From: Ectocarpus siliculosus | Taxonomy: Eukaryota; Sar; Phaeophyceae; Ectocarpales; Ectocarpaceae | NCBI GenBank assembly: GCA_000310025.1 | Contig: FN649742.1 | Span: 910,753-934,928 of the forward strand | Direction of reading: 5' to 3' | Length of the DNA stretch: 24,176 nucleotides | Part shown: positions 201 to 22,121 of the stretch, in pieces | Numbering within the stretch: the first letter of the stretch is position 1 | Layout: every line of letters begins with the position of its first letter | The notes under the pieces: model-generated | The model's database searches: none | The model's input: the letters and a program-made list of their open reading frames with translations, nothing else | What the model was told of the DNA's origin: nothing | Translations under genes and position numbers: made by a program

Positions 201-1019
201 TTCCAAGGAGGTGGGGGTAACGCGGACAGAGGGGGCGGGTTAAGGGTGCATGCGTGTTCAAGGCGGATTCGGGTCGCGCCGAACCTAACGCATGAATGGT
301 GAGAGCCAGCACCAACAGTATTACATATCACCCCGGTAAATTGTGATCCTCAGCGGTTGCCCCCCCCCCGCGTCTGGTGTTGTGGACATGGACGTTGCGG
401 GGTGACCGCAGGGCACACCACGGAGTGCGTCGTGATGCCAAAACGCTCCCTATGCGGCAGACCGTTTTCAGCCATATGTGGAGGACCTTCGATACCACCT
501 ACGTCTTCCAGAAGAAGCAGAGAGCCGGCTGTAGTGCAACATGAAATGCCAACGGACCGTCATCAAACGCAACGACAACAGCAATGAGACCCTTCGATGC
601 CACGAAAAACACAGAACCTGACCGCCACCCCCCAACGCGCGCGCGCCGATAAGACAAGCTCTGTTTACCAAGACACTTTGTGTGAAACACGTACGCCCAT
701 GCTGAGTCGCGGCGAGAGAAGGAGAGCAATACGATTTCATCAATCTGCGAGACAGCCAACCCTTAATTGGACATCTTCGGGACGATTTTCGATTGGTCGC
801 CTCGATCGATCCCCTTTGAGGTCGCACAACAATTACGCCACACCTCAAGGTCGGGAAGGGATTAAAGCTGTGCTGTGTGTTTTTCAGGCGAAAGGACGCG
901 TACGCACGCACGCACACACCACGGAGTCTTTCTCATTTGCTGAGCCGGTTACCGTGGCCATAATACCAACACCAACCAAGAACCACGCAAGCACAACGCG
1001 AGAACAGGCGACACAACCA

Positions 1020-1232
1020 ACAAGCCAGCCAGCCAGCCAGCCAGCCAGTCTCTCTACCACTCAGCCAGCGAAACTGCCAGCTAGATAGCCAGCCACAAAG
1101 ACAATCGACCGACAGACAGACAGAACAAATAGACAGAACAGACAGGACAGACAGACAGAACATGCATATAGATTGACTGACAAACAAACTGACAGACAGA
1201 CGGACAGCCAGCCAGACAAACAGTCAGACAGA
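1020..1232. repeat. Compound microsatellite, (CCAG)n then degenerate (GACA)n
   Basis: Six or so uninterrupted CCAG units occupy about 1024-1047. A looser run of GACA/CAGA tetramers then extends to 1232, with interruptions. On the minus strand the run reads GTCT/CTGG and starts directly at the splice donor of the coiled-coil exon. Several long frames cross this tract only because a tetramer repeat rarely makes stops. Confidence 0.85.
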
Positions 1233-1233
1233 C

Positions 1234-1516
1234 CTGGTCCGCTTCGGCGACCAGCCCCGCCAGCTCCTCCTCGTCCATCCGCAGCCTCTCCCGTAGCCTC
1301 TCGTTCTCCCCCTCCACGTCCGTCAGGCACTCCCGCTCCCGCTGCGCCCGCTGCGCCGCCGCCGCCGCCCTGGCTTCGTCTCGGTCGTGTCCCGCACCCT
1401 CGACGGCCTCCTCGGATCGGTCGGCGGCCGACTGGAGCGCCGCCGCCCGCTCTCGAAATGCCTCCTTCTCGCGGAGAACCCGAGAGGCTTCCGACTTCGC
1501 TCGTTCCGACTCTCCC
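1234..1516 (-). CDS. Internal exon of a coiled-coil protein
   Basis: This 283-base minus-strand exon encodes 94 full codons of uninterrupted charged helix. It runs from GESERAKSEASRVLREKEAF through an Ala-rich middle (DEARAAAAAQRAQRERE) to ENERLRERLRMDEEELAGL and ends AEADQ. Leucines and alanines recur at heptad-like spacing, there are no prolines, and third positions are mostly G or C. The acceptor is TCTTTCGCAG (AG at 1518-1517) after a pyrimidine-rich stretch, and the donor is CAG|GTCTGT (GT at 1233-1232). The exon enters in phase 2 and leaves in phase 0. It probably supplies rod or scaffold sequence. Such helices are too generic to name a family, and neither the start nor the stop codon of this gene was found. 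Confidence 0.7.
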
Positions 1517-2006
1517 CTGCGAAAGAGGTTGTTCCGGAGGTCGGGGCAACGGGGGGGGGGAATGGGAGGTTGCGGGAAGACTGCTGCTGAGAGGGAAGGG
1601 TGTAAGGAGGAAACTGGTCCGTGCGCCTCCCCTCGCCTCCGCCCTCCGACGCCACCACCCACCCAACGACCGAAACGCGAGATCAGAAGAGACGGAAGGG
1701 GGAACACGAGCAACCCAAACCATCATGCGTTTTCTCGTCATCAACATCAAAGCTTGGTAGTTAGTTCAGTTGTTGGTGATGAGGATTGATTCCTTTGTTT
1801 CCTAAAAACAAATCGTATCCACAACAGCAATTACATTTGCTTAAAAACCAGCAAGTTGTCAAAAGACACTGCGCCGTGTTCCCGGTTACATTTTATGACA
1901 CACGACCTTACGGAGGGATTCTCCCCGATATCTTGTCGTTGACCCAGTAAAGAACTACAGGGGATGTATTGTAGTATGTTGGTTACCTATACAGATGTTT
2001 TTGTAC
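1517..2006. other. No recognised feature; presumed intron or flank
   Basis: Apart from a C-run near 1551-1560 (G-run on the plus strand), which serves as pyrimidine context for the minus-strand acceptor, I see nothing in this stretch. No convincing upstream coiled-coil exon was found. Base composition becomes A+T-richer from about 1760, up to the foldback element. Confidence 0.4.
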
Positions 2007-2664
2007 TTGTAGCACCAGCTGGTATCACTGATGTAGATCATCAGTGTATGGCCTAAAACAGACTCGAAATAGGTCCAGTATCCAGCCGTTTTTCCTCCAC
2101 TCACTGAAAAAGACTCCAACACATCCCGTTCGACTGTGGGTATATCTCGAACGGGTAGTCTTTCTGTGTTTGTGTTTATTTTTCCTAAAATCAGATATGG
2201 AACAAGCAATGCACATGCTTGAGGAGTTCGTGAATACGAGAGGGGGCTCAATCGCGATATCCCATACCATGGTACTCTCATATTCTCCATGCCACCGACA
2301 TCCAATGCCACGCTGCGTGACAGGATCGGCGTGACAAGCAATGTTGGATACAATGTTGGGTGTGAAGATTGGCTGCAGTAAATGTCTTGTGGAGCCATAT
2401 TAATAGTTCTTAGCGTGGTCTCGTTTTCGTCTTTTATTCTGTCAGTTGTTTCCCGCAGTTCTGCTGCGTGCGGAAAATACACTGGAATCCGTGAGCATTT
2501 CGTTCATTTCTTTGATGTCCCAAAAGCCCCGATGGATCCTATTGACATTATTTTTAATCCTGTCGTGACGAGGTTTGGCCCGAATCTTGCTTGGGCGGCT
2601 CGTTTGCTCTTCGGGCTGAAGAACCCGTGGATTCGTCGAAAACGACAACCTGCTCCACACAAAG
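2007..2664 (+). repeat. Left inverted arm of the foldback element
   Basis: This arm pairs with 2957-3607 read in reverse complement. The inner end is the block CGACAACCTGCTCCACACAA, whose complement begins the right arm. The arm carries a frame with the peptide FGPNLAWAARLLFGLK, mirrored on the other strand in the right arm. Of the arm differences I examined in that stretch, most change the amino acid (for example H/R, A/V, M/T, W/R), which argues against current protein selection. Confidence 0.8.
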
Positions 2665-2956
2665 AGAGTGCACATGTGTATCATAGTACAACTGTCCACG
2701 ACTCTCGCACAGTGTGGTGCTCGAGGGCGATGTGTGGCGAAGAATATGTAGCGTGGGGGCAAAAAAAAGAAAATAGATGGACGTCGATTTTTTGTTTGGT
2801 CTTGCGTGAGACTGAGGCGCGAATGAGAGACCCATTATTTGCAGCTGTTATTCATCTGTTATTTTGTAGCCCGTGCAATTTTCGCGAGGAGAACTAAACC
2901 GGTACGCGACACGCAGCTTAGAATTCGCTCCGAAACCCTTTGATATATATAAATAC

Positions 2957-3607
2957 TTTGTGTGGAGCAGGTTGTCGTTTTTCGACGAATCCGCGGGCTC
3001 TTCAGCCCGAAGAGCAAACGTGCCGCCCAAGCAAGATTCGGGCCAAACCTCGTCACGACAGGATTAAAAATAATGTCAATAGAATCCGTCGGGACTTTTG
3101 GAACATCAAAGAAACGAACGAAATGTTTCACGGATTCCAGTGTATTTTCCGCACGCAGCAGAACTGCGGGAAACAACTGACAGAAAAAAAGCCGAAAACG
3201 AGACCACTCTAAGAACTAAGGCTCCACAAGACATTTTGAAGGATACTGCAGCCAGTCTTCACACCCAACATTGTATCCAACATTGCTTGTCACGCAGCGT
3301 GGCATTGGATGTCGGTGGCATGGAGAATATGAGAGTACCATGGTGTGGGATATCGCGATTGAGCCCCCTCTCGTATTCACGAACTCCCCAAGCATGTGCA
3401 TTGCTTGTTGCATATCTGATTGTAGGAAAAATAAATACAAACAAACACAGAAAGACTACCCGTTCGAGACAAACCCACAGTCGAACGGGGATGTGTTGGA
3501 GTCTTTTTCAGTGAGTGGAGGAAAAACGGCTGGACACTGGACCTATTTCGAGTCTGTTTTAAGCCTTAACACTGATTACCTATATCAGTGATATCAGCTG
3601 GTGCTAA
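2957..3607 (-). repeat. Right inverted arm of the foldback element
   Basis: Reverse-complement copy of the left arm, starting at CTTTGTGTGGAGCAGG and ending at AGCTGGTGCTAA. Its slightly different length reflects small indels near the outer end, where the AATCAGTGTTAAGG region is rearranged relative to the left arm. Confidence 0.8.
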
Positions 3608-4199
3608 GTACGCGCATAAATTTACATTGATCCTCCCAGAAAATGACCTCCCCGCAGTCACACGCGTTGCACGCAACGTACGATATGGCCAGTAGGGAAA
3701 ATGGTCAGAAAAACCGTGCGATCGATCGAATGCGAGAAGAAAAAGACGCAACCGACATGAAGGCATAATGCGTACGCGAAGGCACAACAACGAAGAGCCT
3801 CACCGCAGATACTATTGTTACGCGATATTTCGTCTAGGGCTGCCGACATTTCAGCAGGTACTTACACGTCGTTCAAACCACAACCTATATACACGATCAG
3901 GAACGGTGCCCTGCGGGACTATTGCTTCGAATCTGAAACCCAGGTGTAACGCTATGCGCCGGCGTAAAATGAGTCCCTAAATGCAAGGACTTCCGTGACC
4001 AACACGAATAGATAGGCTGTTCCGCACGCGACACAAAGCAGTGAGCACCGTACACGTCGTCTTAAACCAACAACCAAATTTTGCCGTGCAGAATACCGCA
4101 TGGCGCGTGCCGGCTTTTGGTCAACGCCAATTTCGTGCACGGCGCGGCCTTAAAACAGGAAACCGGCGACCGTAACGGAAACATTGACCAAAGAAAAAG
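3608..4199. other. Gene-free interval downstream of the minus-strand YbjN-like gene
   Basis: It lies between the foldback element and the stop codon of the minus-strand YbjN-like gene, so its right part is presumably that gene's 3' untranslated region. I see no repeat, splice-bounded frame or structured RNA in it. Confidence 0.4.
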
Positions 4200-4469
4200 T
4201 CACTGCAGGGTCGTACGCACGATCTCCGCGAGGAGGCCATCGGAGGAGCCGCCTCCTCGGTGTCCGGCAATTTCCATCGCCCTCTCTGCGCTGACGTTTT
4301 CGTCCCTAATGGCAATGAAGGCCTTTAGGTAGCGGAGGCCGCACGAGAAGTGGTAGTCCAAGAAGGTGGCGAGGATGGGCTTGATGTCCTTCGCCTCTCC
4401 GAACTCCGCCGTCGTCTTGTACCGCACCTCCCCGTCGTTCATGTCAAGGTCGACGCTTCCCACAGCCAC
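4200..4469 (-). CDS. YbjN-like protein 1, last exon (exon B)
   Basis: This is the 89-codon terminal exon of the left YbjN-like gene, ending CTG CAG TGA. It opens after a GCGCGCGAGCAG acceptor (AG at 4471-4470) in phase 0. The first residues are VAVGSVDLDMNDGEVRYKT, then AEFGEAKDI and GLRYLKAFIAI, and the tail is Gly/Ser-rich. YbjN-family proteins typically carry a block of the form G-x-x-x-L-D-x-x-D-G-x-[IV]-R-[YF]-K-T, followed by a helix with a YLP/YLK-type core. The match is by memory of the family pattern. The role of these proteins in algae is unsettled; bacterial members are described as stress or motility regulators. An ATG at 4484-4482 would allow an unspliced start (MAREQ...), but the paralog at 12795-13088 begins at the aligned position directly after its own acceptor, which favours splicing. 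Confidence 0.72.
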   Translation of the reverse strand: MAVGSVDLDMNDGEVRYKTTAEFGEAKDIKPILATFLDYHFSCGLRYLKAFIAIRDENVSAERAMEIAGHRGGGSSDGLLAEIVRTTLQ

Positions 4470-6223
4470 CTGCTCGCGCGCCATGTCAATTTTCTCATCA
4501 GAGGGGAGTTTTCTTGTCGAAGAGAGGGACAGAGAGAGACTGCCGTTTGTTGTGTGCGGCAGAATTTGGATTTTAGTTGCAAGGTTGGCATTGTTTCTGG
4601 GACAACGGGGTCACGATAGACTTCGCTTTTGTTCTCTCCCTCTGGATCTCTCCGTTGAGAAATAACGCATAGGGTTACCGTACGTAGCGAGTGAGGCCGC
4701 GAGTGCTTACGAAGAGGGCCGCTTACTAAGAGGGCCATGGAAGGATAACAGTGGTCGGCCAACGCAGGTGGCCACGAAGCAGTGTCTTTTCCCGCCCAAC
4801 CTTCCCTTTTCTTTCGAAGTTGGGGGAAAGGAATTGGAAGGGTCCCATGCGTTCTGTAGTAATAGGATGTCTAGAGTAGTGGCACACCAGGAAACTAGGG
4901 GGTGTTGGTGAATGGCAGACGTCCATTTGGGGGCTTGGCCATGACAGACTCCAGTGTGCCTTTACGCGGCAACCGCATTTCAGGCTACATGTGATTCGAT
5001 AGTTGTAGGGTTGGTATTGGTTCTGTTGATGGGGCGAACGGTGACAAACACGGTGTGGAACGTAAAATTTTGCACAGACACAGTTCACAGTTTACAGGTT
5101 GCATTGCCATGCAAATCGTGCCCACAACACAACATGCCGATGCTGCCATGTACACATAAGTCTTTTGTTCCCGGCACGCACGTACCTCCCAGTTGAGGAG
5201 CGTCACAAAAAGGAGCGTTTGCGCCAACTTGCTCGAGGGCATTGTCTTCCATTCAGGCTGCGAAAGTATGTGTACCTGGAAACAACAGCAGCAAAGGGGG
5301 GAGAACATTGCCGACATATAAAGGCGTGTCATGCAACCAAGCGGCCAGAACACCATGCGGCTGAAATCCCTTGCAGTGGTACGCCATGTGTCCACGATTA
5401 TCATTGACGAAAGGACCAAATCGTATCGTGCCCCGCAAGAAGAAAGACCAATCCAATACATACATGATACATGGGCTATCGATAGTCGGGTCGTCCCCCC
5501 TTGCGAATCACGTGGAATTTGCGGAATCAAAAGTGGTCAAAATACGTACACCAAAGTTTCGAGGAAGTTCTCCTTTGACACCTTGGGAAACATGGCTATT
5601 GGTCTTTGAATGAAGGCTTGTTGCTCAATGGTCCGTATTGTAGATTGTGGGTGTCAGCCCGTAAGAAGCGAAACAAGTGGTCGACTAGGTTCTTTTGGGC
5701 ATACTCGTGAGCCACACATTCTGTGACGTCCGCGCTACGGGTTGGGCGAGATGATGATACAACCTACTGGCGCGTAAGTAACACTTACTTCTGATCGTTT
5801 CGACTTGAGGCATGTGATGAACTCACACGAGATACAAACCCGCCCGTGATGTCTACAGCTATTGGGCCTGTCTACATATCAGCGCATTGCCTCTCGAGAG
5901 AAAAGAGGACACTTCTTGAATTCCATGTACGGTAATACCCCAAGGCTCGTCTCAGTTGCATCTCGACGGCTTGTACGTATCGCGGCATCAATAATCATGC
6001 TCACAACGCAAGGATGGGTTGCTATACATCCCTCACATCACCGCGGGCATTTCGACGAGTAGCTCCTCGACAACCCCAAGTGCAATGGGGGCACGAAGAA
6101 TATCCCTCCATCCCCTCTCCCCCTTAAGCACGCGTAAAGTAGCCATATTTCGTAGAAGGTTACGCAAGGCACATGGTATCGTTGAGTGGGACATTGGCGG
6201 AAGCAGCACTGGGTCCTGCGTAC
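4470..6223 (-). other. Intron of YbjN-like gene 1 (1754 bp)
   Basis: Inferred intron with donor ATG|GTACGC (GT at 6223-6222) and acceptor GAGCAG. Near its 3' end a CT-rich run (about 4520-4545 in plus coordinates) and CTGATGAG/ATTGAC motifs could serve as pyrimidine tract and branch site. Several frames of 60-180 codons lie inside on both strands, but none has coding-like third positions or recognisable sequence. I see no mobile element in it. Confidence 0.5.
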
Positions 6224-6349
6224 CATGTTTCCTTTCTGGTTGATGTTCACACTGAAGTGCGCGCTCCAGCCATCGACACCAACATCGAACACCAGCGTCT
6301 CCCAGTCGCTGTTCCCGCGCCCAACTCGCCGCGCGAAGTTCGCGATACC
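6224..6349 (-). CDS. YbjN-like protein 1, exon A
   Basis: A 126-base exon of exactly 42 codons, phase 0 at both ends, opening after TTTTTCCGCAG (AG at 6351-6350) and closing at ATG|GTACGC. It begins GIANFARRVGRGNSDWETL and ends HFSVNINQKGNM, the alternating hydrophobic pattern expected of the first strands of a YbjN-type fold. About 74% of third positions are G or C. A second frame is also open here and continues to a stop near 6033 (GYRELRAASWA...), but its third-position G+C is near 50%, so I prefer the first. The aligned exon of the plus-strand paralog (11509-11658) also opens with Gly in phase 0 and ends with an F-x-[VI]-x-x-x-[IV]-x-Q-like stretch, which supports the call. Confidence 0.62.
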
Positions 6350-6589
6350 CTGCGGAAAAATAAACCACACGATAGAAAGCAGCCCGAGCAAAACAAAACG
6401 AAACACGTGGCAAAAACAAAATGAACAACTGGGACAACAACGCATCGCGCTTATACATGGCAAGTTTGCCGGCGTATGCCGAGTGAGTGTCGCAGGTGTG
6501 ACCGACCGTGTAACCGCTAACCTACGGGAGGCGAGCGTTCTCGGTACACTCCGGCCAATGACCGGATTTCCGTGGCTTGAGCATCATAC

Positions 6590-6629
6590 CTGAGGCCAAC
6601 ACGTCCAACCTCGGCTGTTTTCGACCCAT
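6590..6629 (-). CDS. Tentative first coding exon of YbjN-like gene 1
   Basis: An ATG at 6629-6627 opens a short frame, MGRKQPRLDVLAS plus one base, ending at a good donor CTCAG|GTATGA (GT at 6589-6588). It resembles the first exon of the paralog (MDSKQYEKQCKR plus one base, also phase 1) in size, phase and the shared K-Q. The next recognised exon (6349) needs phase 0, so a small exon of length 2 mod 3 must be missing, or this start is wrong. Direct joining to 6349 would instead use the alternative frame that ends at 6033. Confidence 0.3.
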
Positions 6630-8024
6630 ATTCTGTACGAAGGTTTCAATCAACTGAACCAATTATCGACGGTATGGCTCATTTTACGATTGATTGTAAA
6701 ACCCCGTTGTGTTGTGGTCAGGTGATGTTTGCTGCTTAACTCCTGGTTTTTCCCCAGGAACTAGGAAAACTTGGAATTCACGCCGTTTGACTGGACGCTT
6801 AATTAAATGAATGCGTTTGGCGTCTTCTCAGGCGCTCGTCTCACAGGGCTGGGTGACCTTTGATCCATCAGATGATACAATAGTTCTTCGGGCGCTGTCG
6901 TGGTGTGGGTGTTGTTTCTTTGACGTCAAGCTCCCGACAACCCAGCCAGGACAAAAACATAAATTCGGTGCTCACGGATAAATGCAATGGTTTGACAATG
7001 ACGCATGAAGATGTTAGGCCCCAACTCGCTCCTCCTGCAGAACGGCCGTTCAAAAAGAATCAATACCCACAAAGCTGGTTCATGACAGCACAATGCATAC
7101 GGGCGCTAGTGACCGAAACTGGCCAGCTTGCGACCCTACCCCTAGCCACACAAACGCTCCTACAGCAGGTAACGAGTGCTCTTGCGCTCTATGTAACGAC
7201 AAAGCTGTACCTCGCTTGAGCGCACAGCAGTCGCGACTCTCCAGTCTACCAAAGTAACCCCCACCCGCCTCTCACCTTGCTTCTGAGCACTGCATCGTAC
7301 GGAGACGATGCCAAGGGACGGAGATGCCGGTTGAATTCGGTGTTTATGGCCGAATTTGAGTGATGCACGGCAGGGCGAAAGAAAGCACGCGACGCATCAT
7401 TTGGTTGGAGAAATCAACGAGCGAGAAAGTTTACATCACACGGGCATGAAAAGAGGGCATTGAATCATGTGTTCGACGCAAGCACGGAAATATGTTGTGA
7501 TACTCGCTACGTGGGGCAGAGTTAGATCACTCCCCCGAGACTGCAGCCAGCGGGGTGGGTACGAAAAAGGATGCCGCTGTTCCAAACCTGCCGGGAGTCT
7601 GTGGTTATACGGTTCAGTGATCGGGTGTTTAAATGATTCTTCCTTGTCTCTGGCACCGTGGTTCCTACGCCGAGCGCTCATGATGCGGCTATAACATGTG
7701 TGGCGCCTGTCGCCCCTTTGCCCGTGTACAGCCACCCATGACTTGTAGTTCGTGTTGTGTTTCGTACGCGATCTATAGTTCATCACTTGAAACAAGACCT
7801 CTGCTATATTGTCCAGGCGATCGAGGTTTAGAATCCATCGGTGCCCAAAGTTAACACAATTTAATAATACTTGGGACATGAGTGATACATGGGATCGCAC
7901 ACGCACGCAGCAATAGCCCCGAAGTGTCGGGGGATACGAGTGCGCGGGGGGTTAGCAAGCGTAGGCAGGAAGACCTCGTGGCGAGACATTTATTACGCTT
8001 GCACATTTGTTATGCTTGCACTCA

Positions 8025-8166
8025 CCTTTCCTCTTTCTCTCTCTCTTTCTGTTGTTTTCATCGTTCCCGTTTCTACAGTAGTTCCTTTTTCCTTTTTCCT
8101 TTTTCCTTTTCCTTCTCCCTTTCCCCTTTGCCCCTTTTACTGCTTTTGCCTTTTCCTTCTTCCTCG
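8025..8166 (+). repeat. Long pyrimidine tract with TTTTTCC units
   Basis: Nearly 140 bases of C and T with few interruptions. The core, about 8085-8110, has several tandem TTTTTCC units. The complement is polypurine. Such tracts can adopt triplex structure and impede polymerases; here the only direct observation is the strand asymmetry. Confidence 0.8.
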
Positions 8167-12794: not shown

Positions 12795-13088
12795 TTGAAC
12801 GTTGGCACCCTCGAGGTCGACGACAGCGCTGACGTCTCCGTCTCCTTTAAGACGGCGGCAGAGTTCGGAGGCATCAACGACATCACGCCCGTGCTCACGT
12901 CCTTCATGAAGGCGCACGCCGGCGTTGGTTTGGACTGCTTCCGTGCGCTTACAGCAATTAAGTATGCGGACGTCGATGTCACCCACGCCCTGGGCATGAT
13001 CGGCATGGTCGGCCCTACGGGTGAAATGAGCACGCAAGCTGACGATAAGCTCTCGGCGATGCTGTCTGTGTTGTCAGCTCCCGCCTGA
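12795..13088 (+). CDS. YbjN-like protein 2, last exon (exon B)
   Basis: A 97-codon terminal exon after CCGCGCAG (AG at 12793-12794), phase 0, ending GCC TGA. It opens LNVGTLEVDDSADVSVSFKT, then AEFGGINDITPVL, then GLDCFRALTAIKY, and ends in a Met/Ser/Ala-rich tail (LSAMLSVLSAPA). It aligns along its length with 4469-4200: V-G, K-T, A-E-F-G, D-I, P, L, F, G-L, A-I and a late M-x-x-x-G are shared, roughly a third of positions, with one-residue gaps. The D-G-E-V-R-Y block typical of the family is altered to A-D-V-S-V-S, so this is the more diverged copy. Third positions are mostly G or C. The product is probably soluble. Confidence 0.72.
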   Translation: MNVGTLEVDDSADVSVSFKTAAEFGGINDITPVLTSFMKAHAGVGLDCFRALTAIKYADVDVTHALGMIGMVGPTGEMSTQADDKLSAMLSVLSAPA

Positions 13089-14835: not shown

Positions 14836-14840
14836 ATGAG
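14836..14840 (+). CDS. Cys-rich membrane protein, start codon exon (ATG AG)
   Basis: The ATG is followed by AG and then a donor GTGCAA. Two spare bases match the single base contributed by the next exon (AG|A = Arg), which gives MRHKARVGTPQIAR followed by a hydrophobic run, a textbook signal peptide. The 105-base intron (14841-14945) is a multiple of three and stop-free, so unspliced transcripts would encode the same protein with 35 extra, mostly basic residues before the hydrophobic core. Confidence 0.45.
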
Positions 14841-14945
14841 GTGCAAGCTTTTTCGTATTGGGCAAGGAGATTCCTTTTTGCGCAGCTCGGAGGACGTTGA
14901 TCAAGGAGCCCGTCGCCTCCGCCTCCGCCGCCGCCTCCGCCGCAG

Positions 14946-15195
14946 ACATAAAGCCCGCGTTGGTACCCCCCAGATCGCCAGGGTGGTGCTGGCGGTAGTC
15001 GTCAGCTGTGTACTGCTCGGCGGAGGGTTAGCCGAGAATTGCTGTTCCGGGCCGGATGCTGAGGTCGAATGCGTCGAATCCGGGGTGGACTACCTAGGAG
15101 AGGTATGCAATCTGAGGAAAAGCTATCCGTTGTGTGTGTGCTACTGCTGTGGGTGCATGGCATCCTTGAAGTTTCGCTACGAAGTGTGCTCACAG
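14946..15195 (+). CDS. Cys-rich membrane protein, signal peptide and first half of ectodomain
   Basis: This exon opens after a (CCGCCT)n-type pyrimidine-rich tract ending GCCGCAG and closes at CTCACAG|GTACCA, phase 0. Residues 3-31 of the model form a signal peptide: basic start, hydrophobic VVLAVVVSCVLLGGGLA, likely cleavage before E-N-C-C. Ten cysteines follow, as CC, four single cysteines, a CCG-x-C cluster (CVCYCCGC) and a final C before S-Q. If the donor at 15196 is ignored, a stop (TGA 15205-15207) ends the frame three residues later, giving a small secreted Cys-rich peptide. I see no known disulfide-domain signature. Confidence 0.55.
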
Positions 15196-15622
15196 GTACC
15201 ATGGTGAAAGCGCTCTTCCAAATCTCAGAGGTTGCTGTAATGGCTTGTGTTCGGGCAGTACCAATAAACGTTGCCCCCGGATGTTATTTTCACGGACCCC
15301 CTCAGCATACATGGAGCGTACACACACGTGGATGAGGCTGACTCTTATGGCAAGCGAAAGTTGGCCCGACGGATTTTTTTGGACTGGAATACCCCCACCC
15401 CCCCTGATTTGCCACGGATTCGAGCAAGAGATAGACCTCTCACCACATCACCACAGAGTTCTCCCTCCATGATGGTCGGATCGTCACCAGAACTTGAAGG
15501 CTGTACGCACCACACCTATAGGCGTCTTTGAAGCTAGTGGTGACTGCTGTGGGGTCTCTGTGTGCTGAGAAATGTCAATCCATGTGAGCAAAAGTAAGAA
15601 TCCGTATGGAGAATCCGTAGGA

Positions 15623-15661
15623 GATGCTATACGATAGTTGGCGAAACTATCGTATAGCATC
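15623..15661 (+). repeat. 39-nt hairpin module, 17-bp stem with 5-nt loop
   Basis: GATGCTATACGATAGTT, GGCGA, then the complement of the first 17 bases. This module ends the left palindrome arm. A partial direct copy (starting GTTGGCGAAAC) follows at 15664-15688. Confidence 0.9.
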
Positions 15662-15702
15662 TAGTTGGCGAAACTATCGTATAGCATCTGTATATCATCT
15701 CT

Positions 15703-15741
15703 GATGCTATACGATAGTTTCGCCAACTATCGTATAGCATC
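15703..15741 (-). repeat. 39-nt hairpin module, inverted copy
   Basis: Same 17-bp stem, with the loop in reverse complement (TCGCC). It starts the right palindrome arm. Confidence 0.9.
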
Positions 15742-16105
15742 TCCTACGGATTCTCCATACGGATTCTTACTTTTGCTCACATGGATTGACATTTCTCAGC
15801 ACACAGAGACCCCACAGCAGTCACCACTAGCTTCAAAGACGCCTATAGGTGTGGTGCGTACAGCCTTCAAGTTCTGGTGACGATCCGACCATCATGGAGG
15901 GAGAACTCTGTGGTGATGTGGTGAGAGGTCTGTCTCTTGGTCGAATCCGTGGCAAATGAGGGGGGTGGGGGTATGCCAGCCCAAAAAAATCCGTCGGGCC
16001 AACTTTCGGTTGCCATAAGAGTCAGCCTGTGAGGAAAACAACAAAAAAAATGACGAGCGACCAACGAACTAACCGCTGAGGCATTGGCTACTGCTGTGGT
16101 AGTTA

Positions 16106-16902
16106 GGGTCGGTCTTAACGAAGAAATCAGATCTCGAAATCACGTTCAGATTTGGTTAAAAGACTGGAAGATCCACAGAACTCTTTCGTTGATTGGCTGA
16201 AATGTTATGGAACTCGTCGAATCTTTAGGACTTATAACAGGACGACCCAAAACCAAATCGGGATTTGAAAAAAGGTGAAATCATTTAATCGGATCCCGAT
16301 TTGGGTGAACAGCGTCCATAGTTGCGGGACCAAGGTCTACTCGCATACACGGCGCGCGCCCACCTACCCCCATCCACACGAACTCCATCCACCGCCGAGC
16401 ACAGAGGAAAGAAAGAGCACAAAAAGCCAACCCAAAGGGAGGGTGACTGCGCATCGTTGTTGCACGTGACTGGTCCCGAAAAAAAACGTGTGTGGGATGT
16501 GTTGGTCTGTGGGGCAATCTCCCGTGGGTTGCCGAACTTCAAATGCACAGACGAATTGGCGGCTTTCCGTCGGACGAGGGTCGATTCAAAGTGTCACATG
16601 CATAGACATCGTGTCAGTACCGCACAGAGGCATGTACGCGTTTGGTGTGTGCTTCTCGGGAGCGATAGCTCCCCATGTGGTGTGGCCACGTCATAACAGT
16701 ACGTCACAACAGCAATCTGGCAGTTGGCAAGCGACGGACCTCTCGGGTTGTTCGTCGTGGACTGCAGAGATTCGTTTCCATTTGGCAGATCTCTCGTTAA
16801 GACACACAGGCCATTTCTGTCCGGATTTGGGTAGATCCGACTCTTTGATTCTTATATCGAAATTGTGATTTCGAGATCTGATTTCTTCGTTAAGAACGAC
16901 CC
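16106..16902. mobile_element. 797-bp MITE with 38-bp terminal inverted repeats and TTA target duplication (PIF/Harbinger-like)
   Basis: The termini GGGTCGGTCTTAACGAAGAA... (16106-16143) and their complement (16865-16902) pair over 38 bases with one mismatch. TTA lies directly outside both ends (16103-16105 and 16903-16905) in the same orientation, so it is a duplication and not part of the inverted repeat. A 3-bp TWA target site with G-rich termini is the usual mark of the PIF/Harbinger superfamily. The interior frames (16322-16696, 16488-16868) have no transposase motif, so the element is non-autonomous. Confidence 0.82.
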
Positions 16903-17106
16903 TTACGGTATGCATACCTGCGTTAGGTTATCTCGGACCGCCCCCGAGTAGAGCATATCAATGATACACACGCGGGGGCGCACTGCTGCACAGCTGTTTG
17001 AACTGAACTTGAATGTAATTACCTACAGTTAGGCTTGTGTACCATAGCCAATCCACCGGCTTTTACCTTGCACCTCCGTATTTACCAAGGGTTTACTTGG
17101 TAATTT

Positions 17107-17270
17107 TTCCGCCGTTGAATATTACTGCCGTGGTGGGCGGTCCCGGTAATCCACCGTTTTACCGTCGTTTTATTGTTTTACCGCCTCCGCCAATAGCGAT
17201 ACCGCCGAAAAACGCGTTACCGCCTACCGCCAAAACACTTCCGCCATGTAGGTACGTTACCGCCGAACGA
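17107..17270 (+). repeat. Degenerate TTACCGCC-rich sequence
   Basis: ACCGCC or a one-base variant recurs about ten times at irregular spacing (TTACCGCC, ATACCGCC, CTACCGCC, TTTCCGCC). It is probably a decayed short tandem repeat, directly upstream of the tRNA-like stretch. Confidence 0.5.
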
Positions 17271-17271
17271 T

Positions 17272-17356
17272 TTGCTGAGTGAGTAGAGGTCTAGCCTCGA
17301 CTGCTCTACAACCAGCGTGAATCAGGAGTTCGAGTCCACGTGTGGACGTACTTTTT
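17272..17356 (+). mobile_element. tRNA-like sequence with A and B boxes, possible SINE head
   Basis: TTGCTGAGTGAGTAGAGG resembles an A box. GTTCGAGTCC at 17328-17337 is a near-perfect B box about 50 bases downstream, and TTTTT at 17352-17356 could end a polymerase III transcript. The T-stem does not pair beyond one or two bases, so it is not a functional tRNA. No tail or target duplication was identified. Confidence 0.42.
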
Positions 17357-17984
17357 CCGGCCATTTCTTTTCATGAAGTATGTGTTCTTTGGTTCGGGTT
17401 TGTTTCCGGGAGAACCATTGAATATATTGAGTGGACAGGGCAGCGTTTTAGCTAGGGGCTAATTTGGGATATTCGGCCTGATTTTGGGAGAAAAGCACTC
17501 CAAAATTGTGAATAACACGTGTATTTCACCTGTTGTTTATCGTTAAACAGTCTCAGGGAGGGTGACAAGTGGAATTTACCACTCGAACACTCGCCTGACA
17601 GCCAAAACAAGGGCCCAAAAACATTTCTCGCCTTCGGCCGCGCTAAAAAACGTGCGCCCAAAATTTTTCGAGTGCGGAAAGCCGCACCCGGGCCTTCGGC
17701 CTACCCAAGGAATGTTCCGAGAACTGGTATTCCGACATGGAGACCATTACACTCGACCAAGTTGTTAGCACTACTGACAAGAAAATGCGCCGTTGAGATC
17801 TGTCTCTTCCGCAGTCTTTGGCCGCTTGCCGAGGTTAGACGCGTAGACGCGGAAGAGCCTTCGACTCTCCTCCCTCTGCCCTCTGGTCGCTACTTCTCTC
17901 CTCGTTTACATATCAAGGAACGAAACAAGCCACCCCTGTGAATACTAATTACTGCAACGGCACCGGCCTCTGGCTCTGACAGGA
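17357..17984. other. Unassigned intronic sequence with small hairpins
   Basis: A 140-codon plus-strand frame (17519-17941) crosses it but has no motif. Short GC hairpins occur (for example GTGCGG-AAAG-CCGCAC near 17671), and CTTCGGCC appears twice within about 70 bases. I do not call a gene. Confidence 0.3.
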
Positions 17985-18528
17985 GAACCCACCCCTTGCT
18001 CTCGTGCTTCTTCTTGAGAACGCGTTTGGCGATGGGATGGAGGTACTTGCAGCCCGGATAGGGGGCATGGTGATTCCTTCCGCTCTGGAGCACAGGTGGA
18101 CCCGCCCTCGTCGGAGGTGCGCGCCTTCTTCGTGACCCCCTGCTGTGCCGCACGGTTACCGGGCTGCCGCATCGACTTCAGCTTCGATGTTTCCGCTTGA
18201 AGGTTTTTGATGGCCGCAGTGTTGGAAGATACCGTGTTTTGCAAGTTGTTGACTTCTTCAACTCGCAAAACAAGGTATCTAAGGTATCTTTCAACACTGC
18301 GATCATAAAAAAAAACTTCCAGCGCAAATAGCGAACCTGAAGTCGATGTGGCAGCCTGGTAACCGTGCGGCACAGCAAGGAGTCGCGAAGAAGGCTTGCA
18401 CTCCGATAAGGGCGGTTCTACGTGCCTCTGCTCCAGAGCAGAAGGAATAACCATGCCCCTTATCCGGGCTGCTAATACCGCCATCCCATCGCCAAATAGA
18501 AGGAAGCACGAGAGCAAGGGATGGGTTC
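17985..18528. repeat. 544-bp degenerate palindrome (foldback)
   Basis: The arms 17985-18248 and 18259-18528 are inverted copies around a 10-base loop (TTGACTTCTT). Outer ends match as GAACCCA-CCCTTGCTCTCGTGCTTC, and inner ends as CGCAGTGTTG and GTTTTGC-AGTTG. Many substitutions and several indels separate the arms, so the inversion is older than the one at 15335-16028. A 199-codon minus-strand frame spans it (17945-18544) with a heptad-like middle (VEEVNNLQNTVSSNTAAIKN). I regard this as mostly a by-product of the fold, although an ancestral arm may have been coding. Confidence 0.8.
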
Positions 18529-18585
18529 GTAATCCTATCATCAAGGGATGACGGGGTCCTTCACGGGAGCGTTCGCCCGCAGGGA

Positions 18586-18610
18586 GACAGACAGACAGAC
18601 AGACAGACAG
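18586..18610 (+). repeat. (GACA)6 microsatellite
   Basis: Six perfect GACA/CAGA units follow the palindrome. The same tetramer family occurs in the compound tract at 1020-1232. Confidence 0.9.
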
Positions 18611-19442
18611 GCCGGTAGTACACCATTAGCTGAGGAACTCAGGTAGCACAGGATGCCCGAGTGAAACCAGCCCCGTGTATGCATCACGGTATGTAGAAAA
18701 TCGAGGGAATCATTTTCTCCTCGGGTTAAAGGAGGTGGATCGAAGTCCGACGAGATTCTAGCAGTAATCCTGAGACCCCGGTAGCAGATTCTATCCTGGC
18801 ATCGTTGGATAGTCGGCCAAGTAGCAGAGCAGCGGACAAAAGGAAAAAAAAAACGCACTCGTGCGTCGGTTCCCAGGATAGCCCCGCATTCCCAGGTTAG
18901 CCGCGCAAGCTGAATTTGTGCCGACTAGCGTGCCATTTAATCGAAACACGTAAGTATGTGCCTCTGTTTTCTGTGCATCTATAATAGTAGTAGCTCATCT
19001 ATGCGGCGTATTCACAACACCCGAATGAATGAAAATCGTCCTCCAAGAGTGTGCGAATTCCTGCCAGAGTTAGTAACCTGTGTCTGACCTCACCATCGAC
19101 TATCAGCGTCTTTCATTAAATCGCATCCGAACCTCCAAATTTACCATTGCTTTCGACAAAGTCAACTATTACCACTGTGGCAAGCACTGCGGGTCGGTGA
19201 CTGCGAGCTGTGCCGCAAGTGATCCGCCCGCTCACGCCAGCGAGTGGCATGTAGAAGGCCCGTTTCTTCACCAAGCACCAAGTGGCCTCCCCAGTGGTTC
19301 TCGGAACGCTTGTAAGGCTCGGTGCTCCTCATGCCTTGGATGTGTCCTCGTGGATCCTACTAGGTATTTAAGGTGCTCTTTCACACGAAGGATATCCAGG
19401 TCGTGAGCTAGTTCACCCATATCTTACAGAGCAGCATCGAGC
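18611..19442. other. Intronic interval without a supported gene
   Basis: The only noteworthy frame is 19080-19406 (GTG start, peptide with YYHCGKHCG). It is followed by an unrelated Cys-rich stretch and has no convincing acceptor or donor. Nothing else is visible. Confidence 0.3.
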
Positions 19443-19965
19443 ATGCCTTCAGATCAGCATGGAGCAAACATCCTCAGATCACCGATGTCCTTCAGGTCAG
19501 CATGGAGAAAATATACTCAGATCAGGTGTCTGTGTCCTTCACCATTCACATCACCTCTGGTAGACATACGCGATCACGTATGTCCTTCAGATCAGAATGG
19601 AGAAAATATACTCAGATCACCTGTCTGTGTCCTTCACATCACCTCGGGTAGACATACCCCGATCACGTATGTCCTTTAGATCAGCATGGAGAAAATATAC
19701 ATCAGCATGGAGCAAATGTACTCAGATCACCTATGTCCTTCAGATTACTAGGGAGCAAACATACTCAGATCATTTACCTGTGTCTTCCAGGTCACCTAGG
19801 AGCAAACATACCCCGACCACCTATTTTCTTCAGATCACCTCGGGCAGATATACCCCGGTCACCTGTGTCCTTCAGGTCAGCATGGAGCAAACATACTCAG
19901 ACCACGTATGCTTGTGTATTTCAGATCACCTCACGGCAAGCATACACAGATCACCTGCGTCCAAT
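19443..19965 (+). repeat. Minisatellite, about 11 units of 42-48 bp, two alternating unit types
   Basis: Each unit runs roughly CTTCAGATCAGCATGGAG, a variable AAA/ATA segment, then CTCAGATCACC and TATGTC. Type A units carry AGCATGGAGMAAA. Type B units carry CACCTCGGGYAGACATACCCC. Units 2-5 alternate A-B-A-B, giving a ~92 bp higher-order period. One unit is internally duplicated (near 19680-19735). All three frames stay open for long stretches because unit lengths vary, so the frames here are not genes. Confidence 0.88.
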
Positions 19966-20504
19966 CGACAACCCCTCTAAAGAAATATCAATAGCTCGAT
20001 CTGTAGGGGTCTGATCTGTTTTATGTGTGAAGTGGTGGGTGTGCTTTCGTGACAATGCAAACAAATGAGGTAAACGTAAAGTGACGTGTCCTTACCGCCA
20101 TCGAACAGTAGTTCTCTACGGCCGACCAGACCTTCTTATTTAGCACGATACTGCTGTTACCGTTCACCGGCGGAAATCCTGCTTGTGCACACGCTCGGTT
20201 GGTAGTTGGGTTCATTCGGCCAGCCTCTCAATCACCGCCTGTCTTGCACAGCGAATACACAAGTGCATCGTGCCAATGTTACTCTACCTTCTGCACCCCG
20301 CGGGTGGCACCCGAAATGGAATTCTCCCGTGTGCGCCCCGTTAATTTTTCGTCCCAACAAGAGGGCGAGATGCGTTGCCAGGATCGGGGCAAGTCTTCTT
20401 GCTTGCACCTCGCTCAACTCCCGCCCCCCCCCTGTGCGTTTCTTCGTCTGCCTCGAACATGACGCGCGAAGAGATACTACTGCATGCACGTGGAGTCCCC
20501 GCAG

Positions 20505-20744
20505 ACGCGGGCGTGCGTGTCGTGCATCCCCTCCCGCAGCAGCAGCACCAAGTGCGCCTACTGCTGCGGAACCCCCAATGCGGAGTGCGACCTGGAGTGG
20601 TCCTGGGGCGCGGTCCTCGCCACGCTTTCCGTGTCGGCGGTGTTCGCGACCTGCTCAGGCATCCTCGCCTTGGCGGAGAAACGACGAAAGCGCAAAGGGA
20701 TTTCTCTGGCGAGAGCGTGGTCGATCCCGCAGGGGATGCCCGTG
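20505..20744 (+). CDS. Cys-rich membrane protein, second ectodomain half and transmembrane helix
   Basis: A 240-base exon of exactly 80 codons, phase 0 at both ends, from CCCCGCAG to CCCGTG|GTAAGT. It encodes TRACVSCIPSRSSSTKCAYC, six ectodomain cysteines in all including a CCG, and then a hydrophobic span (model residues about 119-143, with GAVLATLSVSAVFATC at its core). EKRRKRK follows as the stop-transfer signal. Ecto-outside, basic-inside topology agrees with the signal peptide exon. An in-frame ATG at 20484 could start a shorter gene (MHVESPQ...) if the 5.3 kb intron is wrong. Third positions are strongly G/C-rich. Confidence 0.65.
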
Positions 20745-21028
20745 GTAAGTGCATGGAGTGCTTTCTCGGATAGGAAGCGGGGCTCGGTGGGGGGGGGAGG
20801 GGGGTTCCGCTACGCACGATCCCACCCTCCGCCGCGTGAGTACAGCTTGCATGGTATTTTCCGTGGAGTTTCGTGGAATCGTATTCACGGATCGTCTTTC
20901 GATGCTCTCGTCCCCCCTCCCCATCCGAAGCCACCATGTTTACCTCCCACCCCCACCCCCGGCAATACGTTGGTACTATCGCGTGCTATGCATACGTCTA
21001 CCCTGCGGCTCTCTCTCTCTCTCTCAAG

Positions 21029-21176
21029 CTTCGAGCAACGGTGACAGATCTATCGGACGCTGTCAGAGGAAGGGCGTCGATCTGGAGCGCGGAAGGCTTG
21101 AACGGCGCTGATGTTGGCGATGATGACCTGCTTGAGCACGTCGGGTTGTTGGAGGAGATCCCGAACGACTCGATAT
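21029..21176 (+). CDS. Cys-rich membrane protein, acidic cytoplasmic exon
   Basis: It opens after (CT)n-CAAG (AG at 21027-21028), an excellent pyrimidine-tract acceptor, in phase 0, and closes at CGATAT|GTGAGA in phase 1. It reads LRATVTDLSDAVRGRASIWS, then ADVGDDDLLEHVGLLEEIPN, an acidic juxtamembrane segment. The antisense strand is also open here (stop at 21050-21052) with protein-like sequence (DLLQQPDVLKQVIIANISAV), but it lacks a pyrimidine-rich acceptor. I prefer the plus strand because its phases link the flanking exons. Confidence 0.45.
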
Positions 21177-21645
21177 GTGAGAGAGGGGCCTGCCAGGCTG
21201 CCCACCTGTTGTTGTACGTTCGACGGCCTTTCTCTTGGGTTTGATAGCGCACGTTCTCCGTGGAGAGCTGTTGTGGTTACCTCTAAGTCAGGGACGACTC
21301 CGACATGCAAAACCCGAGTAATGCAGCGCGTACATGCAGCCTGTTGGCCCGGCCTGTTCTTTTCCTACCCGCTCCAGAGTTGCCGTTAAACGATGCCGCA
21401 TATTCGCGTGCGGTCTCATGACGTCACGCCCTCGCCCTCCCCTCACACTCCGGTACAACAGCTGCGGTGACACATAGACAAGGCGATTTTTAGCCTTGTT
21501 GCAAGAACGGCAAGCCCACAAGGCTTTTTTGGTTTGGTTCGGAGACGGTGACACCATGGTTTTGAGCACGAGGAAGGTTTCTACTTAACGCTTGCACTTT
21601 GTACCCCTCCCCCCCCCCCGCGCGCGCGCTCTACTTTGGAACAAG

Positions 21646-22121
21646 ACGGAGCGCTCGTGCAGCAGCGCGACTCCGACATCCCCGTGGCCAAGTTGGCCGA
21701 GGACAACTGGGTCACGGCCATGGCGTTTGCTGGCGGCCAACCCAACCCAGACTCCGACCCTGTCACGTACGGCAGCACCAGCACTACCACCGCCAGCACT
21801 AGCAGGCGCGAGGGAGCGGGTCCAGAGGGCCAAGAAGAAGAAGAACATACTTGGTCGGTTTCGAGGTGGAGATCCGCGCGTGCGACCGCGAGACAGGCGC
21901 GACGCCTCAACAGCAGCGGTGGTGGCAGTCGTAGCGGTAGAGCTGGTGACGGCGTTGTGTCGCCCGCTGACCCTACCACCTTGGCATATATTAGTACGCC
22001 GGCGGCGGGTCCAACCCCCAGCGGAGGGGAAGGCGTAGCGAGGGGGCGGGCGAGTAGGTGGGAACCCCCACCGCCTGTTGCTGTCTTAGGTGACGACCTA
22101 GAGACGCCGGGGGGGCGGTAG
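21646..22121 (+). CDS. Cys-rich membrane protein, last exon (cytoplasmic tail)
   Basis: It opens after a long C/GC-rich tract and GGAACAAG (AG at 21644-21645), phase 1, so the joined codon is T|AC (Tyr), and ends at TAG 22119-22121. The peptide starts GALVQQRDSDIPVAKLAEDN and continues with a Ser/Thr run (TYGSTSTTTASTS), an EEEE patch, a Gly/Arg/Ser-rich low-complexity part and a WEPPPPVAVLGDDLE end. The first ~45 codons look well ordered; the rest is probably disordered and could hide another intron. The complete model (14836-14840, 14946-15195, 20505-20744, 21029-21176, 21646-22121) is 1119 bases and 372 residues. Confidence 0.5.

Follow-up and report, generated by a model that had tools for sequence, protein, structure and literature searches.

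What kind of gene, if any, lies between positions 14836 and 22121 of a 24,176-nucleotide (nt) stretch of the genome of the brown alga Ectocarpus siliculosus (GenBank assembly GCA_000310025.1, contig FN649742.1, positions 910,753 to 934,928 of the forward strand)? This whole stretch is referred to below as the window, and all coordinates are given in its own numbering. A first-pass annotation had joined five plus-strand exons into an undescribed type I membrane protein of 372 residues with 16 cysteines (Cys) in its ectodomain. Our analysis favours, with a probability of roughly one half, a plus-strand gene for an orphan single-pass membrane protein. Its first exon is most likely the signal-peptide exon at 14836 (type I topology), and its splice sites are probably not exactly those first proposed. 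The downstream part, 20505-22121, is very probably coding, and the upstream block is so less surely. The features on which the argument turns are as follows.

14836-22121, plus strand: five-exon model of the first-pass annotation (5 + 250 + 240 + 148 + 476 nt, giving 372 residues and a stop)
14836-14840, plus strand: first exon of that model (ATGAG, 5 nt), uncertain from the rebuilt model and its splice scores
14946-15195, plus strand: putative signal-peptide and Cys-rich exon; proposed frame best of six over 14947-15195
14983-15033, plus strand: putative signal peptide, hydrophobic core and terminal GLA (Kyte-Doolittle)
15196-20504, plus strand: long putative intron of 5.3 kb with both edges uncertain, holding inverted repeats that resemble miniature inverted-repeat transposable elements (MITE-like) and a tandem array
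20394-20471, plus strand: pyrimidine-rich stretch, possible 3' splice region (71% C+T over 20394-20469; first AG in 78 nt)
20505-20744, plus strand: exon with a juxtamembrane cluster of six Cys, a membrane helix and a basic patch (13.3 bits, best of six frames)
20604-20675, plus strand: predicted transmembrane helix (hydropathy 1.94 over 19 residues; helical in a low-confidence structure model)
20676-20696, plus strand: EKRRKRK stop-transfer segment, read from the sequence, with a tail predicted to be cytosolic by the positive-inside rule
21029-21176, plus strand: mildly acidic tail exon with EHVGLL (10.6 bits over 21029-21175, best of six)
21646-22121, plus strand: last exon, with a Ser/Thr-, Gly- and Pro-containing tail and the stop (16.6 bits over 21648-22118, best of six)

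Coding signal and predicted membrane topology of the downstream exons

Rebuilding the five-exon model from the sequence reproduced its exon coordinates, phases and 372 residues exactly, and hydropathy and sequence confirmed the hydrophobic N-terminal core, the one helix, the EKRRKRK segment and a tail that is first mildly acidic and then contains Ser/Thr, Gly and Pro. Agreement of phase across the exons is weak evidence, as the splice sites had been picked to fit. Coding potential was scored with a generic codon model using general amino-acid frequencies and a G+C content at third codon positions (GC3) set to 0.65. Under this model, the proposed frame outscored the other five in each main block (14947-15195, 20505-20744, 21029-21175 and 21648-22118). 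When stop-free windows of 80 codons on both strands were ranked, keeping those whose starts are separated by more than 240 nt, the downstream exons took 4th to 6th place and the upstream exon 10th. A generic exon-chain finder scored the plus strand of the region at 39.9 with an intron cost of 7 and at 31.2 with a cost of 10, about twice the scores of the opposite strand (21.2 and 14.0, respectively), and none of the 60 shuffles reached the plus-strand score at either cost (maxima 19.3 and 12.7). The best model at costs 5 and 7 ends with 20543-20744, 21029-21176 and 21646-22121, and that at cost 10 places the same two final exons after 20484-20744.

Within this part, the exon 20505-20744 has a minus frame as its runner-up (10.5 vs 13.3 bits), and its left edge is uncertain, with 20472, 20505, 20540-20546 or a start at 20484 as candidates. 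Its donor at 20745 is among the top 0.2% of GT dinucleotides. The next exon is bordered by an acceptor at 21028 (top 2.2% of AG) and a donor at 21177 (top 3.5% of GT). The acceptor of the last exon, 21645, scores poorly with the generic matrix (top 31%), yet is the first AG in 69 nt.

By the positive-inside rule the basic side of a membrane helix faces the cytosol. The last three exons would encode an extracellular Cys-rich stretch, one helix and the KRRKRK stop-transfer, and then about 220 residues of tail. This tail has no recognised domain; its final 112 residues hold 11 Pro in the 372-residue model, and a YGAL motif straddles the junction of 21029-21176 and the last exon. A cluster of Cys followed by a helix and a basic patch occurs once on the plus strand, at the claimed exon, and in 0/60 dinucleotide shuffles of both strands. 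Similarly, a hydrophobic core followed by at least nine Cys is found once on the plus strand, at the claimed upstream exon, and once on the minus strand, and in none of the 60 dinucleotide shuffles (both strands). It should be noted that the thresholds of both pattern tests were chosen after the exons had been seen, and that Cys density alone is not extreme (the maximum, 10 Cys per 55 codons, is equalled by the highest of 120 shuffled strands). The evidence for 20505-22121 fits a type I, or at any rate N-out single-pass, Cys-rich membrane protein without a recognised family; to this extent the topology first proposed gains support, and the exact upstream joint that came with it is not favoured over other joints.

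The upstream block and its possible join

The upstream exon gives a modest codon score of 5.7 bits over 14947-15195, and its frame is not uniformly the best. Over 14836-14944 it scores -1.8 against 10.4 for a minus frame, and in the Cys-rich part, 15103-15195, it is second only (-2.3 vs -1.4). This part has 7 Cys in 31 codons, a count met in 18 of the 9154 stop-free 31-codon windows of the plus strand, 7 of which overlap the upstream exon itself. Kyte-Doolittle hydropathy of the N-terminal core peaks at 2.34 in the 19-residue segment that starts at residue 12, and the putative cleavage site was placed by eye. That the signal-peptide exon is the first of the gene is plausible. Reading 14836-15195 unspliced passes through the 105-nt first intron in frame and yields a model of 407 residues; excising that intron (donor 14841, -0.94, top 15% of GT; acceptor 14945, 2.6, top 4% of AG) to leave a 5-nt first exon lowers the hand-scored value from 27.8 to 24.9.

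Possible joints combine the donors 15103, 15196 and 15204 with the acceptors 20471, 20504 and 20539-20545. Neither of the splice sites proposed for the long intron stands out: donor 15196 (CAG/GTACCA) scores -0.06 (top 10.6% of 1591 GT) vs 3.14 for donor 15103 (GAG/GTATGC), which has the same phase, and acceptor 20504 falls within the top 22% of the 1460 AG, with the acceptors at 20539-20545 scoring 0.75 to 2.96. By the generic matrix, acceptor 20471 scores -5.57. This acceptor, of phase 0, ends a 78-nt AG-free run (gaps of at least 78 nt make up 17 of the 1459 between AGs), and AG-free runs of 98 and 94 nt likewise precede 21028 and 12794, respectively, both of them acceptors that the finder favours; possibly, the stretch before 20471 marks the exon that follows as internal. 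Ten models were scored by hand with the intron cost set to 7. The nine joined ones range from 24.9 to 33.3: those with donor 15103 score 30.4-33.3, those with donor 15204 score 30.1-32.4 and those with donor 15196 score 24.9-27.8. In the finder's top models shown, at all costs tried, neither donor 15196 nor acceptor 20504 was picked, and at costs 5 and 7 the exon taken up after the join starts at 20543 rather than 20505.

Several results weigh against a joined gene of the kind we favour. The donor first proposed is weak, and the best of the ten hand-scored models (37.2) is the one that simply starts at 20484, partly because fewer introns are charged to it. At costs 5 and 7 the finder does retain 14836-15102, though only together with an additional exon at 18019, which sits in an inverted repeat. 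An intron of 5.3 kb is long compared with the means of 530-1203 bp given for published brown-algal assemblies in passages of two reports (PMC6507550, PMC6418280). The splice and codon matrices were generic ones, without training on this organism; at intron cost 3 the finder overfits, with 17 exons; and the opposite strand also tops the shuffle maxima at both costs, so that the shuffles are a lenient null. AlphaFold models from single sequences are poor (mean confidence, pLDDT, 46 and 40), and no relative was found in the collections searched. In viral contigs, the exon 20505-20744 gave 27 pattern matches and 14836-15195 gave 24, none confirmed; in prokaryotic genome contigs, the 372-residue query gave 76, none confirmed; and in phages, tblastn with the same protein gave no match. 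The tail exons were covered only as part of this query, and as the collections consist of viruses, prokaryotes and phages, absence from them is hardly informative for a eukaryotic gene.

The alternative that survives best, which we regard as doubtful, is that of two units. One, running from 14836 to the stop at 15205-15207, would encode a short, secreted, Cys-rich peptide; the other would be a separate gene from the ATG at 20484, encoding 294 residues with the N-out helix as a reverse signal-anchor. A start at 20484 had been named beforehand as an outcome that would count against the five-exon model, and it is a live rival, heading both the finder's models at cost 10 and the hand-scored set; the weak donor, the repeat-bearing 5.3 kb between the blocks and the dependence of the upstream exon on a repeat point the same way. 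Against it stand the AG-free, pyrimidine-rich run before 20471, as expected of an internal exon, the good score of the in-phase donor 15103 and the complementarity of the two halves, the one with a signal core and no helix, the other with a helix and no signal.

That the 372-residue model is correct in every detail, from the 5-nt first exon to the joint 15195/20505, is unlikely. Its phases all fit, its Cys number is even and the concentration of Cys in 15103-15195 is rare; but it has the lowest of the ten hand scores, 15103-15195 lies outside its best frame and the finder passed over both of its long-intron sites. The arithmetic of its ectodomain is correct, with 16 Cys between signal core and helix (10 + 6), besides one in the core and one in the helix. 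The upstream exon contributes 10 of these if it ends at 15195, and 3 if it ends at 15102; over the ten hand-scored models the ectodomain count is 6, 9, 10, 15, 16 or 17, and a number of 16 is therefore not established.

Open frames arising by chance in DNA that is GC-balanced and rich in repeats are a very unlikely source of the whole pattern: the modest upstream score, the 10th rank of its best window and the performance of the opposite strand speak for them, and the failure of all 60 shuffles to reach the plus strand, together with its twofold lead over the opposite strand, speaks against.

The long putative intron has features of its own. Inverted-repeat (MITE-like) elements lie at 15335-16028, 16102-16906 and 18025-18496, all within it, and at 2010-3606 elsewhere in the window, with arms of up to 269 nt that are 98% complementary. 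A degenerate tandem array with periods of 43 and 95 nt occupies 19453-19958. The finder's exons at 18019-18069 or 18019-18095 and, at cost 5, 19564-19577 were rejected, lying in the inverted repeat or the tandem array. A Cys-rich open frame at 19077-19406 (plus strand) is a possible extra exon; it has no match in Pfam or NCBIfam and is absent from the finder's top models shown.

Comparison with known Cys-rich membrane proteins

Searches of Pfam, NCBIfam, PHROGs and PDB sequences returned nothing that reaches a curated cut-off where one exists, and among the papers listed by literature searches no description of this protein was seen. With the 372-residue protein as query, Pfam gave no match of any kind, including no kinase, at E-values up to 10, and the 16-Cys ectodomain, with or without the helix, gave nothing either. 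The exon 20505-20744 alone matches the Pfam family PF12191 (TNFRSF12A/Fn14) at E 0.0038 and 18.1 bits, below the cut-off of 24.9. Extending it to 20472 changes the E-value to 0.0022, and the joint 15102/20472 to 0.0019 (18.8 and 19.0 bits, also sub-threshold). Profile search of the ectodomain thus yielded sub-threshold matches in 3 of the 7 constructs that contain this exon's sequence, over profile positions 50, 51 or 52 to 109 of 129; the 372-residue protein, the two versions of the 16-Cys ectodomain and the joint 15203/20540 were without one. Among the controls, a match was kept by 1/9 ectodomain shuffles with Cys fixed (E 0.18), by 0/3 whole-exon shuffles and by 0/4 free ectodomain shuffles, and by three of the four constructs with only the helix shuffled (E 0.0069-0.092). 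The resemblance would appear to stem mainly from ectodomain residues; it is sub-threshold and was met among several proteins tested.

In passages of PMC3672086, Fn14 is described as a type I receptor of 102 residues with six ectodomain Cys and a 28-residue tail. The algal sequence resembles it in having a small Cys-rich region that directly precedes the one helix, with basic residues after it, and differs in its tail of about 220 residues and in Cys number and spacing; Fn14, moreover, is an animal protein. No TNF receptor appeared in the results of four PDB sequence searches, and three TRAF motif patterns had no match in the tail. A TNF-receptor-type protein of the Fn14 kind outside animals, with a single juxtamembrane Cys-rich module clustering upon ligand binding, would overlap with the orphan membrane protein that we favour and is in itself highly improbable: the three E-values and the behaviour of the controls support it, but the bit scores, the four constructs without a match, the PDB results and the lack of a TRAF-type motif do not, and an exon start at 20540 or later would remove part of the matched stretch.

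The layout had also been likened to that of the Shisa group, in architecture only, and in that general sense the predicted layout does resemble it: passages of PMC10531659 give Shisa proteins a signal peptide, a Cys-rich domain at the N-terminus, a single helix and proline in the tail. The Cys order reported there, C*C*CC*C*CC*C, is absent from the 16-Cys ectodomain (strict pattern, this joint alone), the tail of the 372-residue model has neither [LP]PxY nor a C-terminal PDZ motif, which are features of some members, and Pfam gave no Shisa match among the sequences scanned. Membership in the group was rejected on these three counts, and no paper in the collection searched names both Ectocarpus and Shisa. 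As judged by sequence comparison, Fn14/TNFRSF12A may be a slightly better, sub-threshold lead than Shisa, with membership in either unsupported. Outside animals, TNFR-like Cys-rich repeats have been described in the plant CRINKLY4 receptor kinases (passages of PMC4617170 and PMC4979521), with seven crinkly repeats containing C(X10)CWG (PMC4617170); in contrast, the 372 residues lack both a Pfam kinase match and any CWG triplet. A candidate internal repeat of two Cys-rich halves (CCSGPDAEVE and CCGTPNAECD) was rejected, as its score was matched or exceeded in 150 of 2000 Cys-fixed and 317 of 2000 full shuffles.

Genomic surroundings and possible role

The window has a G+C content of 51.6% and a CpG observed/expected ratio of 0.99; four values for brown-algal assemblies, taken from passages of PMC6507550 and PMC6418280, run from 48.7 to 56% G+C, and composition, introns and repeats together would suit a brown alga. 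Rfam and transfer RNA scans of the window found none. Three repeat motifs were searched for, two in the viral contigs and one in the genome contigs, and none of them was found. The window also has a pair of diverged paralogous exons, 12795-13088 on the plus strand and 4203-4512 on the minus strand, which align at 36% over 74 residues (E 2.7e-12) and have strong coding scores of 27.2 and 32.3 bits, respectively. They match nothing in Pfam, NCBIfam or PHROGs; their sequence may resemble YbjN-like domains. The exon chain with the top finder score of the window (70.6) is on the minus strand at 499-8061 and may represent two genes. It includes the paralogous exon (as 4204-4512) and an exon at 1234-1516 that is rich in charged residues and is the top coding window (37.7).

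As for the single-pass membrane protein that we favour, a disulphide-bonded ectodomain exposed on the cell surface would bind a ligand or partner, and clustering or co-association would bring the acidic, Ser/Thr-rich tail to cytosolic proteins. The kinase-free tail would recruit such proteins, which would make the protein a small receptor or adaptor, and it may function in the manner of Shisa-type or Fn14-type adaptors. EHVGLL and YGAL could serve in endocytic sorting; motifs this short are expected by chance. On a more far-reaching interpretation, to which we attach very little credence, a multicellular alga with an evolution independent of that of animals would possess a minimal Fn14-like receptor made of one small juxtamembrane Cys-rich module and a kinase-free adaptor tail, which would be either a product of convergence with TNF receptors or a distant relation of them. 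As long as neither orthologs nor transcripts support it, the locus counts as a further Cys-rich membrane protein specific to its lineage. Should the model hold and the gene prove conserved, its product would be a candidate receptor or adaptor of the cell surface in a group about whose surface signalling little is known.

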